Source: Candidatus Beckwithbacteria bacterium | GTDB taxonomy: Bacteria; Patescibacteriota; Microgenomatia; UBA1400; UBA1449 | Length of the DNA stretch: 47,332 nt | Direction of reading: 5' to 3' | NCBI GenBank assembly: GCA_012797845.1 | Contig: JAAZOH010000010.1 | Span: forward strand, 1 to 47,332 | Shown here: positions 12,287 to 47,332 of the stretch, piece after piece | Layout of the letters: each line of letters begins with the position of its first letter | Numbering within the stretch: position 1 is the stretch's first letter | Position numbers and translations under genes: made by a program | The notes under the pieces: generated by a model | What the model was told of the DNA's origin: nothing | What the model saw: the letters and a program-made list of their open reading frames with translations, nothing else | Database searches by the model: none

Positions 12287-12342
12287 AGCAGTAAAAACTA
12301 AAAACTAATCGCATAATAAGAAATTTTTTAATAGCGCAGAGA

Positions 12343-12424
12343 TTTTTACACTTTTTCAAGGCATTATTTGTCGATAGTACTAGCCGTACTTGAGGCAAAT
12401 AATAACGCAGAAAAAATGTAAAAG
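12343..12424 (+). ncRNA. Structured element, copy 1 (between atpA and atpG)
   Basis: On the plus strand the 82 bases fold as follows. The outer stem pairs 12343-12357 with 12410-12424 (one C·A mismatch, one G·T). An internal loop has AAGGC (12358-12362) facing AACGCA (12404-12409). A 10-bp stem pairs 12363-12372 with 12394-12403. A GAT/TGA loop with tandem G·A opposition (12373-12375, 12391-12393) follows, then the stem AGTAC/GTACT and the five-base loop TAGCC (12381-12385). Copy 2 at 47064-47146 has the same loops with different but paired stems. The plus strand is antisense to atpA-atpG. I do not know the family; RNA versus single-stranded DNA is open. Confidence 0.6.
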
Positions 12425-12461
12425 ATCAAGTTGATAAAGATTTGTCATTGTGCAATTAGTT

Positions 12462-14180
12462 TTAAGCGCTTTTTTCCTGAACTGGAGTGCTTTGATTTTG
12501 ATTAGCTTGACTTGGGGCGGGCGTAGTTGCCTGAGGTGGTTGGGCTTTATAAAGTGCAAAAAGCCGATCGACTTCGGCATCAATTTCTTTAAGATCTTTA
12601 GCTTTATCACAAAGGGTAATAAATTCATCACCAACTTGCTTTCGATAAAAGATCAGGAAGTTTTTCCTAAAATCTCCTAGCTCGGTTAGCTCCATTTCAT
12701 CTAATTTACCCGAATTGGCCATGTATAAAAATATAATTTGCTCATCCCAGGAATAGCTAATCTCAGAGTTTTGAGCCAGCATTTCTCTGACACGTTTACC
12801 TCGATTTATTTCTCGTAATGTTTCTTCAGCCACTTCGGTATTGATAGTTTCAAATGATTTTACTTCAGCATAACGGGCTAAAGTTCTTGAGGTTAGTTCG
12901 CCTATTTTTTTCATAAGTGAAGTTTGGACCTTGCTTCCAATACGGGACACTGAAGCTCCGGAATTAACTGCCGGTAAAATTCCTTCATGCATCATATTGG
13001 CATCGAGATAAATATGACCATCCGTAATTGACATAAGATTAGTAATAATATAGTCGGAAATATCCCCAGATTGAGTTTCAGCAATTGGCAAAGCTGTGAT
13101 CGAACCAGCTCCTAATTTTTTACTAATTTTAGAAACTCGTTCAAGTAGTCTGGAGTGCAAAAAGAAAATATCACCAGGATAAGCATCTCTACCAGGAGAA
13201 CGTTTAAGTAGTAGCGAAACCTGACGATAAGCTTTGGCTTGTTTAGAAAGGTCATCGTAAACAATCAAAGCATTTTTACCTTGATACATATAATGCTCAG
13301 CAATAGCTGTACCCACATATGGAGCCATATATTGTAGGGACGGTGGCTCATCAGAAGTGGCAATAACCATAGTGGTGTATTCCATAGCTTTTCGTTCCTG
13401 TAGTAGTTGCAGTGTGGCTTTGGCTTTGGCAGCCTGAATTCCTACCCCTACATATACGCAGATAATTCCATGACCTTTCTGGTTGCTAATAATATCAATA
13501 GCTAAACGACTCTTGCCAGTTTTGCGATCACCAATTACTAGCTCTCTCTGTCCTCGACCGACAGGAATGGTAGTATCAACCACCATAACTCCAGTTTTCA
13601 GTGGCTCATAAATTGGTTCACGAGCCATAACTGAGGGGGCAGGAAATTCCACATCGCGGTAAGCTTCTGGTTTTATACTGCCCTGCTCATCAATCGGTTG
13701 GCCCAAGGGATTAATAACTCGACCTAATAGAGATTTTCCTACTGGCACTTTTAGTTTTGAGTTATTAGCAACAACCTGATCACCTTGCTTGATTTTGGTG
13801 TAATCGCCCAAAACTACAGTTTCTATATGAGTATCCTCAATCCCCAAAATCATAGCTTTTTCCGTTCCAGTAGAAGTTTTAACAGTTACAATATCTTCAA
13901 TCCGAGCATGGGTAAGACCAGCTACTTTACAAACTCCATCGCCAATATAAATAACCTCACCAATCTGAGTAATACCTTCTTCAACTTCTTCAGGAAAAGA
14001 AAAGTCTAAAAGTTGTGTAAAACTGGTTTCAGCTTCTAGGTCTCGCTTACCTAGATTTTCAGCTTCTGCAAAAGGATCATAAATGAACGTATTTGGAGGA
14101 AGTACAGGATCTAATTCTGGCTTGATATGAGTACTTTGTAGAACTGATTCCAACGTTGGTGCAATCTTTTTAGCAGGCAT
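12462..14180 (-). CDS. atpA: F-type ATP synthase alpha subunit with N-terminal extension
   Basis: The 572-residue alpha subunit binds non-catalytic nucleotide and supplies the arginine finger to beta. The P-loop is GDRKTGKS (217-224) and the arginine-finger region is SGASVSRIGSKVQ. The homologous N-terminal barrel starts near residue 70 (GEVIYIGDGVCKVAGL), about 45 residues later than in the E. coli protein. The extra segment is proline-rich and acidic. The C-terminus adds a Pro/Gln-rich tail (from about 547). The start is supported by a TATAAT at 14196-14191, only 11 bases before the ATG. It is the first gene of the F1 cluster; no atpF or atpH lies upstream of it. Confidence 0.96.
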   Translation of the reverse strand: MPAKKIAPTLESVLQSTHIKPELDPVLPPNTFIYDPFAEAENLGKRDLEAETSFTQLLDFSFPEEVEEGITQIGEVIYIGDGVCKVAGLTHARIEDIVTVKTSTGTEKAMILGIEDTHIETVVLGDYTKIKQGDQVVANNSKLKVPVGKSLLGRVINPLGQPIDEQGSIKPEAYRDVEFPAPSVMAREPIYEPLKTGVMVVDTTIPVGRGQRELVIGDRKTGKSRLAIDIISNQKGHGIICVYVGVGIQAAKAKATLQLLQERKAMEYTTMVIATSDEPPSLQYMAPYVGTAIAEHYMYQGKNALIVYDDLSKQAKAYRQVSLLLKRSPGRDAYPGDIFFLHSRLLERVSKISKKLGAGSITALPIAETQSGDISDYIITNLMSITDGHIYLDANMMHEGILPAVNSGASVSRIGSKVQTSLMKKIGELTSRTLARYAEVKSFETINTEVAEETLREINRGKRVREMLAQNSEISYSWDEQIIFLYMANSGKLDEMELTELGDFRKNFLIFYRKQVGDEFITLCDKAKDLKEIDAEVDRLFALYKAQPPQATTPAPSQANQNQSTPVQEKSA

Positions 14181-14437: not shown

Positions 14438-15547
14438 ATGAAAACTGCCCGAATTTTATTAGGCACATTATTAGCATTTGTACTGGCTTTAATACCAGGC
14501 TCTGCTTATGCAGCTGGTTTACTTGAAGATATTACTATCAATATGTCTTCAGCAGCACCCAGTACTTCATCAACTCATACCTATTCCCTAACAGTAGGAA
14601 GTGATAGTACTACTATGAGGACAGTGACTTTAAGTTACTGTAAAGAGGCCTCCGGAGCTTGTACAGCTCCAACTGGTTTGAGTTTAGCTAGCGCTACTCT
14701 CGGAACTATGGGAGGAGCTTCTGATGGCAATTGGAATTTATCAACTGCTGATAATGTTGCTACCTTAACTCACACAGACGTTGCTTCATCAACAGATGCT
14801 TGGAGTGATGGTGATGTTATTATTTTTGATATTCAAAGTATCACCAATCCAACTGTAGCAGGCTGTAGCGGCTCTGGAGGCACATCTGGAACCTGTTATA
14901 TTCAAATTGCTACTAAAAACTTAACCGGAACAACTATTGATGATGGGGTTGGTTCAATCAGTGTTATTACTGAAGTTACCGTTACCGCTAGAGTTGATCC
15001 TACTTTCACTTTTGTAGTAGCAGGAGTAAATAGCAGTACTGTCAATAATGGCATTACTACATCAGTTAGCTCTGCTTACAATACTCTGCCATTTGGTAAT
15101 TTAACTGCAGGCACCCCTAAATATGCTGCACATAAGTTAAATGTAACAACCAATAACAATGGGGGTTATTTTATTAAAATGAAAATGACCACTCAAATGA
15201 CAGGAAAGTATAGTGGTAACAATATTGATCCATTTGCTTACAATAGTGTTAGCTGGTCATCACCAGCAGCTTGGACAAATCCAGGTGCTACTACTCCAAA
15301 TACCAACACTGCTTGGATTGGAGCTAATACCACAGATACTGATATCTCTGGTTGGTCACTAAGTCCATCTGGTAAGTTTGGTCCAGTTCCAACTGGTTCA
15401 GATAATTATGTTGTGGTTATGCAAGATGCAAATCAAGATGATGGCTCAACAGCTATATATGTTACATATGCTATTCAAGCCAATACCTATCAACCTACTG
15501 ATCTGTACACTGGAACTTTGATGTATAACGCTTTACCGACGTACTAA
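14438..15547 (+). CDS. Secreted surface protein with conserved C-terminal domain
   Basis: This 369-residue protein has a clear signal peptide (cleavage after SAYA, about residue 25). The N-terminal half (about 26-185) is Ser/Thr-rich and beta-rich with two cysteine pairs. The C-terminal half (about 190-369) is shared with the next gene: YNTLPFGNL, WIGANT, GKFGP, YVTYAI and a final LYTGTLMYNALPTY. No membrane anchor or sortase motif is present. The strong promoter, full Shine-Dalgarno and perfect terminator suggest high expression, as for a major surface or pilin-like protein. The function is unknown; the expression inference comes from the regulatory sites only. Confidence 0.85.
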   Translation: MKTARILLGTLLAFVLALIPGSAYAAGLLEDITINMSSAAPSTSSTHTYSLTVGSDSTTMRTVTLSYCKEASGACTAPTGLSLASATLGTMGGASDGNWNLSTADNVATLTHTDVASSTDAWSDGDVIIFDIQSITNPTVAGCSGSGGTSGTCYIQIATKNLTGTTIDDGVGSISVITEVTVTARVDPTFTFVVAGVNSSTVNNGITTSVSSAYNTLPFGNLTAGTPKYAAHKLNVTTNNNGGYFIKMKMTTQMTGKYSGNNIDPFAYNSVSWSSPAAWTNPGATTPNTNTAWIGANTTDTDISGWSLSPSGKFGPVPTGSDNYVVVMQDANQDDGSTAIYVTYAIQANTYQPTDLYTGTLMYNALPTY

Positions 15548-46198: not shown

Positions 46199-46227
46199 TT
46201 GATTTTTTCTATCTTGATTTGTACAAT
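46199..46227 (+). promoter_or_regulatory. Promoter of atpB
   Basis: TTGATT (46199-46204) and TACAAT (46222-46227) are 17 bases apart. The start near 46234 leaves a leader of about 45 bases with no Shine-Dalgarno before the ATG at 46279. Confidence 0.55.
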
Positions 46228-46278
46228 CCAAGGTGTTTGCTTGTCCTGGTAAAAAACCAAACATGCAAACTATTTATT

Positions 46279-47025
46279 ATGGGATTGGCTATTTCTATTG
46301 CCGCCGAACCTGTCCTCCACATTGGTAATATTGCTATTACCAATTCCTTGCTTTCCACTTTTTTTGTTCTTCTTTTCTTTGTCAGCATTACCTTTGCCTT
46401 TAGTTCTAAAACCATAACAAGCTTTCCCAAAGGTAAAAGTCTCCAAAATATTCTTGAAATTATTTGTGAAACTTTACTTAGTTTTTATGCTTCTATCGTA
46501 GGTGACAAAAAGGCGAAAGCCTTTTTTCCTTTTTTAACCACTCTATTTCTCTTTATCTTAATTAGCAGTTGGTCTGGACTTTTACCGGGAGTGGGATCAG
46601 TAGGTATCAAAGAATTCCATAATGGCGAAGAAATTTTAGTTCCTTTTTTCCGAGCTCCAACCGCTGATCTGAATACCACCATTGCTCTAGCCATTTTAGG
46701 CGTAGCTTTCACTCAATATCAGGGCTTACGACATCTAAGCATTCATTACCTTAAGAAGTTTTTCAACTTTAGCAATCCTATGTTTACCTTTGTTGGTTTG
46801 TTGGAGCTAATCAGCGAGTTTGTCAAAATTATTTCTTTTGCTTTCCGGTTGTTTGGTAATATTTTTGCCGGGGAAGTTCTACTGGCCGTGATGAGTTTTT
46901 TGTTGCCAATTGTCGCCCCATTACCATTTTTAGGCTTGGAAATTTTTGTAGGTCTTATTCAGTCATTGGTTTTTGTCATGCTGGTACTTGTATTTACTGG
47001 CGGAGCTACTGAAGCTCATCATTAG
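46279..47025 (+). CDS. atpB: F-type ATP synthase subunit a
   Basis: This 248-residue membrane subunit forms the proton (or sodium) half-channels of Fo. The essential arginine is in KIISFAFRLFGNIFAGEVL (R190, equivalent to E. coli R210), and the helix before it contains LLELISEF. Other landmarks are ILISSWSGLLPGVGSVG and APTADLNTTIALAI. The ATG at 46279 gives the usual N-terminus (MGLAISIAAEPVLHIGNI); in-frame codons from 46219 overlap the promoter. The residues that distinguish H+ from Na+ use lie mostly in subunit c, which is cut off. Confidence 0.95.
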   Translation: MGLAISIAAEPVLHIGNIAITNSLLSTFFVLLFFVSITFAFSSKTITSFPKGKSLQNILEIICETLLSFYASIVGDKKAKAFFPFLTTLFLFILISSWSGLLPGVGSVGIKEFHNGEEILVPFFRAPTADLNTTIALAILGVAFTQYQGLRHLSIHYLKKFFNFSNPMFTFVGLLELISEFVKIISFAFRLFGNIFAGEVLLAVMSFLLPIVAPLPFLGLEIFVGLIQSLVFVMLVLVFTGGATEAHH

Positions 47026-47063
47026 ACTTATTGTAAAATAAAAAATGTTACAGAAACGAGGTA

Positions 47064-47146
47064 TTTTTGATCAATTTGCAAGGAACTAAATATTGATAGT
47101 ACTAACTGTACTTGAAATATTTAGTGACACCGAAAATTGTCAAAAA
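47064..47146 (+). ncRNA. Structured element, copy 2 (between atpB and atpE)
   Basis: The 83 bases fold like copy 1 (12343-12424). The outer stem pairs 47064-47079 with 47132-47146 (one bulge at 47071, one G·A). The internal loop has AAGGA (47080-47084) facing GACACC (47126-47131). A 10-bp perfect stem pairs 47085-47094 with 47116-47125. The GAT/TGA loop (47095-47097, 47113-47115) precedes the stem AGTAC/GTACT and the loop TAACT (47103-47107). It occupies most of the 193-base atpB-atpE gap and here is in the sense direction of the operon. Function and family unknown. Confidence 0.6.
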
Positions 47147-47173
47147 GACGAGTTGGTGTGTATTTGCTTATTT

Positions 47174-47211
47174 TATAATAAGTCTAATAATAATTATTAA
47201 TATAATGGAGG
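47174..47211 (+). promoter_or_regulatory. atpE upstream region: TATAAT and Shine-Dalgarno
   Basis: A TATAAT at 47174-47179 (with only a weak TTGGTG at 47153 as -35) suggests an extra promoter after the structured element. GGAGG at 47207-47211, seven bases before the ATG, is a full ribosome-binding site, fitting the high copy number of subunit c. Confidence 0.5.
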
Positions 47212-47218
47212 AAAACAT

Positions 47219-47332
47219 ATGGCAGATGTACTGCAAATGTCCGAAGCTATTAAAGCTTTAGCCGTTGGTATTACCATTGCAATTGGTGGCGCTATGCCAG
47301 CTTTTGGTATTGGTAAAATTGTTAGTAAAGCT
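47219..47332 (+). CDS. atpE: F-type ATP synthase subunit c (3' cut off)
   Basis: The first 38 residues are visible: a short polar start (MADVLQMSEAIKALAV) and the first membrane helix with the small-residue pattern GITIAIGGAMPAFGIGKIV, as in the N-terminal helix of c subunits that packs the ring. The second helix with the ion-binding acid lies beyond the window. It follows atpB after 193 bases, in the order expected for an Fo operon. The strong Shine-Dalgarno supports the start. Confidence 0.9.
   Translation, partial: MADVLQMSEAIKALAVGITIAIGGAMPAFGIGKIVSKA

Follow-up and report, generated by a model that had tools for sequence, protein, structure and literature searches.

A previously unlisted mobile palindrome of about 165 bases that keeps its shape rather than its letters in Patescibacteria

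Twin hairpins were found in the window, by which we mean the whole 47,332-nucleotide stretch of Candidatus Beckwithbacteria DNA that was analysed. They are copies of a previously unlisted mobile palindrome of about 165 bases, spread through small and probably parasitic bacteria. The element keeps its shape, not its letters, through compensating mutations. Its kind is already known, namely the prokaryotic MITE or palindromic repeat; the strength of the structural constraint and its persistence across genera are the new part. We consider it likely that this is a MITE-like mobile element that is moved in trans and whose folded plus strand is under constraint.

Extent and parts of the window copies

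The initial annotation had described two structured elements at 12343-12424 and 47064-47146. Both hairpins are real, but they were delimited too short. Alignment of the genome copies showed that they are the middle parts of longer palindromic elements (Table 1). The shared loops, the AGTAC/GTACT stem and the pentaloops TAGCC and TAACT agreed with that description in sequence and in folding. Among 12 aligned genome copies, the similarity extends far past the hairpin, up to inverted-repeat ends of about 19 bp, TAGACTTATTGCAAAATAA...TTATTTTGCAATAAGTCTA. The whole elements are near-perfect palindromes of about 164-165 bp, and their length is near-constant (162-168 bp in each full copy). Neither window copy contains an ORF of 80 aa. 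Both hairpins are much more stable than their dinucleotide-shuffled versions (z about -7, 0/200). The core motif GATAGTACTANCYGTACTTGA occurs twice on the plus strand of the window, both times in the hairpins (0.00 expected). The 1.28-Mb genome contains it 12 times and the reversed control 0 times.

Table 1. Features of the two element copies in the window
Feature	Position	Strand	Evidence
Copy 1, whole unit	12301..12463	+	Covariance model R1 141 bits, E 1.8e-22, spanning model positions 1-164; R2 130.7 bits; alignment
Copy 1, left terminal arm AAAACTAATCGCATAATAA	12301..12319	+	Alignment, inverted-repeat search
Copy 1, internal loop AAGGC	12358..12362	+	Opposite AACGCA 12404-12409; sequence, fold
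Copy 1, apical module GAT-AGTAC-TAGCC-GTACT-TGA	12373..12393	+	Tandem G.A loop and 5-bp stem; motif search, fold
Copy 1, right terminal arm	12445..12463	+	Alignment, inverted-repeat search
Copy 2, whole unit	47023..47186	+	R1 165.5 bits, E 6.1e-27; R2 155.5 bits
Copy 2, left terminal inverted repeat TAGACTTATTGTAAAATAA	47023..47041	+	Sequence, inverted-repeat search
Copy 2, internal loop AAGGA	47080..47084	+	Opposite GACACC 47126-47131; sequence, fold
Copy 2, apical module GAT-AGTAC-TAACT-GTACT-TGA	47095..47115	+	Motif search, fold
Copy 2, right terminal inverted repeat	47168..47186	+	Inverted-repeat search

Genomic context

Copy 1 is antisense to atpA-atpG and occupies nearly the entire 175-bp gap between these genes. 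TA lies directly outside its left arm (12299-12300), and the stop codon of atpA on the minus strand, TAA at 12464-12462, overlaps the end of its right arm. Copy 2 is sense to atpB-atpE and occupies most of the 194-bp gap, and the TAG at 47023-47025 within its left repeat is the stop codon of atpB. The start of each copy coincides with the stop codon of the atp gene upstream of it, which is expected if the cell tolerates only insertions at or just past gene ends. The copies are probably insertions of long standing, at the 3' end of atpA and of atpB, that the cell tolerates. The element seems to give neighbouring genes stop codons and sometimes start-codon contexts.

The position of both copies between atp genes, starting at a stop codon, would also suit an RNA element acting in cis in the mRNAs of the atp operon. 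We regard this as very improbable, because one window copy is antisense and the atp operon of a relative, the JAHIVK bin, lacks the element: its atpA-atpG and atpB-atpE gaps are 6 nt and 23 nt. In addition, 12 further copies lie at other sites. The ATP synthase genes form one run in JAHIVK. In the window they are split: atpA-atpG lie on the minus strand in mid-contig (11402-14180), atpB-atpE at the end of the contig on the plus strand (46219-47332).

According to simple ORF calls, the element lies between tandem genes in the sense orientation 15 times and antisense 15 times, in divergent gaps 13 times and in convergent gaps twice. There is thus no orientation bias in tandem genes. The earlier view that copy 1 is not a simple operon spacer was borne out.

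Copy number and distribution

A search with the covariance model R1 gave 14 copies in the own genome (1.28 Mb) and matches in 9/88 genomes of the order. The R1 search of two same-family relatives gave no match. A loop-and-end pattern was run over 84,980 genomes, and its matches were then checked with R1. The pattern found 47 stretches, all of which were confirmed (47/47). They came from Patescibacteria bins and from one bin titled only uncultured bacterium, which was placed in the order. The viral pattern matches (0/4 confirmed by the covariance model) are attributed to chance, and no real match was found in the phages, plasmids and viral contigs searched. The Rfam search gave no match above the gathering score, in line with the remark that no family with this layout was known. 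No description of such an element in Patescibacteria was found in the open-licence literature.

Folded structure and covariation

The element was predicted to be under selection on structure, and the alignments strongly support this. In the 12 genome copies, 27/60 pairs have changed on both sides (61 cells, compared with 17 in shuffles; 0/500). In 19 type-A copies from several genera, 46/60 pairs have changed on both sides (165 cells compared with 47; 0/500 shuffles), and 93.1% of the cells are paired, against 39-50% in slid controls. The loop letters GATAGTA...TACTTGA are nearly invariant across subtypes A and B. In the type-B subtype the outer rod and apical module are retained, and stem 3 is replaced by TTCTGATGAC/GAGGAAGAAGAA, which may be read as additional tandem G.A steps. 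A hammerhead-like CTGATGA...GAA in type-B copies was rejected as a shared core because it is absent from type A.

For a MITE it is uncommon that length, loops and pairing are kept across genera while the sequence is not; one folded strand therefore seems to matter. The constraint could instead be that of a trans-acting structured RNA gene family, a small RNA with its own promoter, which spread by duplication and for which the DNA is only the gene. In its favour are the strong covariation, the loops that hardly vary between genera, the near-constant length and the plus-strand folding bias described below. However, both ends of the palindrome abut the duplicated target, ANT duplications accompany near-identical copies, a 68-bp form without the middle recurs at several sites, and there is no orientation bias. 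We therefore hold an RNA gene family to be improbable as the main explanation, and a mobile element could also make an RNA, so the two readings are not exclusive.

Strand probably under selection

The shared loops had been taken to fix the orientation as plus strand, and folding supports this. Of the two strands, the plus strand gives the more stable fold in every one of the diverse copies compared (43/43; mean -62 compared with -51 kcal/mol), part of this advantage stemming from the common G.A loops. Stem G.U pairs exceed A.C on the plus strand: 35:16 in the first count, 31:12 in the end arms and 68:26 on alignment A7. The excess is significant by cells and not by columns (28 compared with 19). 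From the folding in 43/43 copies and the 68:26 excess, a single strand, either RNA or ssDNA, seems to be under selection. Strand-specific selection is likely and not proven, because the column excess is not significant and the copies share ancestry.

The compensated double changes are more often of the transversion type (40 compared with 26). This, the concerted change of the arms in related copies, and the deletion derivatives, which indicate hairpin instability, would fit an ordinary MITE without structural selection, in which one arm templates repair of the other by template switching and the loops persist by shared ancestry only. Arm-to-arm templated repair may contribute to the compensated changes. 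As the whole explanation we find it unlikely: the loops are nearly invariant though the adjoining stems differ widely between genera, multi-base loops have not been erased, and on one strand G.U is in excess over A.C.

Evidence of mobility

The initial annotation was right about the structural constraint but incomplete, since the hairpin forms just the central part of a repetitive, mobile palindrome of about 164 bp. Repetition, a recent burst, a 3-bp ANT duplication and a fitting empty site together indicate a MITE-like mobile element rather than an operon spacer. The element is short and non-coding, with inverted-repeat ends of about 19 bp in full copies, multiple dispersed copies and a target duplication.

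The JAHIVK bin (G053/G069; genome about 1 Mb) holds 245 TIR end sequences in 925 kb. There, 49 copies are truncated at contig ends, where the contigs break inside the element, and the most similar complete copies in the main subgroup are only 1-10 bases apart. Many near-identical copies and contig breaks inside the element indicate a recent burst. Patescibacterial genomes are small and streamlined, yet this relative has around a hundred recent copies. Paired ends stand at discrete distances. Most are 165-168 bp apart; besides these there are deletion forms (51, 68 and 77 bp) and palindromes of just 24 bp. The 68-bp form without the middle turns up almost unchanged in sequence at several unrelated sites, which suggests that the middle is not strictly required for movement or that the same deletion recurs.

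Flank statistics showed direct matches between the bases that adjoin the TA ends on the outside (42, with 22 expected). This match resolves to a 3-bp duplication ANT around AGACT...AGTCT, exact in 28/51 (shuffle mean 11.3, maximum 20). In a larger JAHIVK set the exact duplication was found in 29/55 compared with 12 expected, always ANT, and a 4-bp duplication in 0/55; full-length copies alone gave 15/30 compared with 5.1. The exact duplication is rare (3/19) among the old copies in the own genome and in two relatives, and in the own genome it has decayed. A paralogous empty site, ACYG-AAT-GCAC, fits the filled site ACCG-AAT[AGACTT..AAGTTT]AAT-GCAC (L150:15449) with exact AAT. Two more paralogous empty sites gave one loose fit and one no fit. 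A TA target duplication of the IS630/Tc1-mariner kind, the first guess from the conserved TA ends, was ruled out by the 3-bp ANT flank statistics and the empty site.

Several other arrangements were seen in JAHIVK. At L177:1-210, three left ends stand in tandem with a 32-bp period, as if by repeated insertion at the same TA within earlier copies. Single-ended remnants occur at L175:718, L145:12263 and L137:266, where the left arm (TAGACTT..AAATAAGAAACGAGTTAATTATG) continues straight into adjoining sequence; those in L175 and L145 apparently provide a gene's start codon. At L155:770-3290, two element ends facing outward bracket about 2.5 kb of host genes; this may be a composite or a chance pair.

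Search for the mobilising enzyme

We propose that an enzyme supplied in trans would cut the ends 5'-AGACT...AGTCT-3' and join them to an A-N-T target, which would create the 3-bp duplication. This mover may be a DDE-type transposase, as the ANT duplications are reminiscent of the ISL2 group within IS5. The folded plus strand, as an ssDNA hairpin or cruciform in transposition or as a transcript, presumably matters to the element, and the arms may therefore drift in sequence yet stay complementary.

Among the genomes searched, none of the Pfam models DDE_3, DDE_Tnp_1, DDE_Tnp_4, DDE_Tnp_1_2, Y1_Tnp and RVT_1 tracks element presence. DDE_3 was found in 1/11 genomes searched, and DDE_Tnp_4 and DDE_Tnp_1_2 gave 0 matches in 15 genomes. 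Two DDE_Tnp_1 matches in JAHIVK have no such TIR nearby; in this bin several contigs below 3 kb were masked, where a multi-copy IS could lie. The Y1 transposase is absent in carriers G022, G049, G066 and G079-G082. Reverse-transcriptase mobility was rejected, as RVT_1 is missing in most carriers. None of the TIR pairs examined encloses a transposase, and pairs over 300 bp were rejected as autonomous elements, since those examined enclose host genes. The own genome (G000) carries IS200-like Y1 transposase pieces at C2:4691-5050 and at the ends of C2, C23, C31 and C38; their place at contig ends suggests a separate multi-copy IS.

A more specific form of the MITE-like reading is that the mover, or an RNA step, recognises the folded plus strand and not the end sequence, so that the inverted repeats drift freely and stay complementary. 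The signal would be the nearly invariant tandem G.A loops, their fixed spacing and the 165-nt rod. We offer this tentatively, as a doubtful extension. If true, such recognition by shape would represent a novel mode of non-autonomous transposition, in which the reading of structure goes together with a 3-bp duplication of the DDE-like type. Whether selection acts on MITE structure, and what moves the element, can be put to a defined test here.

Comparison with known systems

The palindromic MITEs ERIC, Correia (CREE), RUP and YPAL are short, AT-rich, intergenic, repetitive and non-coding, with terminal inverted repeats and foldable transcripts (PMC10969869). The present element resembles them as a short, AT-rich, intergenic and repetitive near-palindrome with inverted-repeat ends and no coding capacity, but it differs in sequence and hosts. 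ERIC, Correia and RUP duplicate TA on insertion, whereas the present element duplicates ANT. Unlike ERIC-type MITEs, it keeps interior loops and length across genera with covarying stems, and no related IS was found. Descent from IS630/Tc1-mariner, as for an ERIC-like MITE, is contradicted by the 3-bp ANT duplication and by the single DDE_3 genome among the 11 searched.

The ISL2 group of the IS5 family makes a 3-bp ANT target duplication, which is the likeness to our element. However, three Pfam models found no IS5-type transposase in most carriers, and no IS5-type DDE transposase with the same TIR was found, so the element was not classed as an ISL2 derivative. REP/RAYT and IS200/IS605 hairpins share imperfect hairpins, conserved irregularities and a fixed strand with it, but membership was rejected, since the present element has a target duplication and Y1 is missing in most carriers. 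TIGR-Tas guide arrays (PMC12045711) were rejected because the architecture differs.

Integron attC sites likewise preserve structure while stem letters vary. In contrast to them, the present element has no RYYYAAC/GTTRRRY end boxes and makes a 3-bp duplication on insertion. A second dispersed repeat of JAHIVK is attC-like, GCGTATGARTTCAACACATC...TGGAGTTGAAYTCRTCGA with RYYYAAC/GTTRRRY boxes. It was seen at L158 about 1130-1250 and L169 about 14790-14910, and also in L134, L156, L173 and L180. The palindromic element lies within or adjoining two of these repeats.
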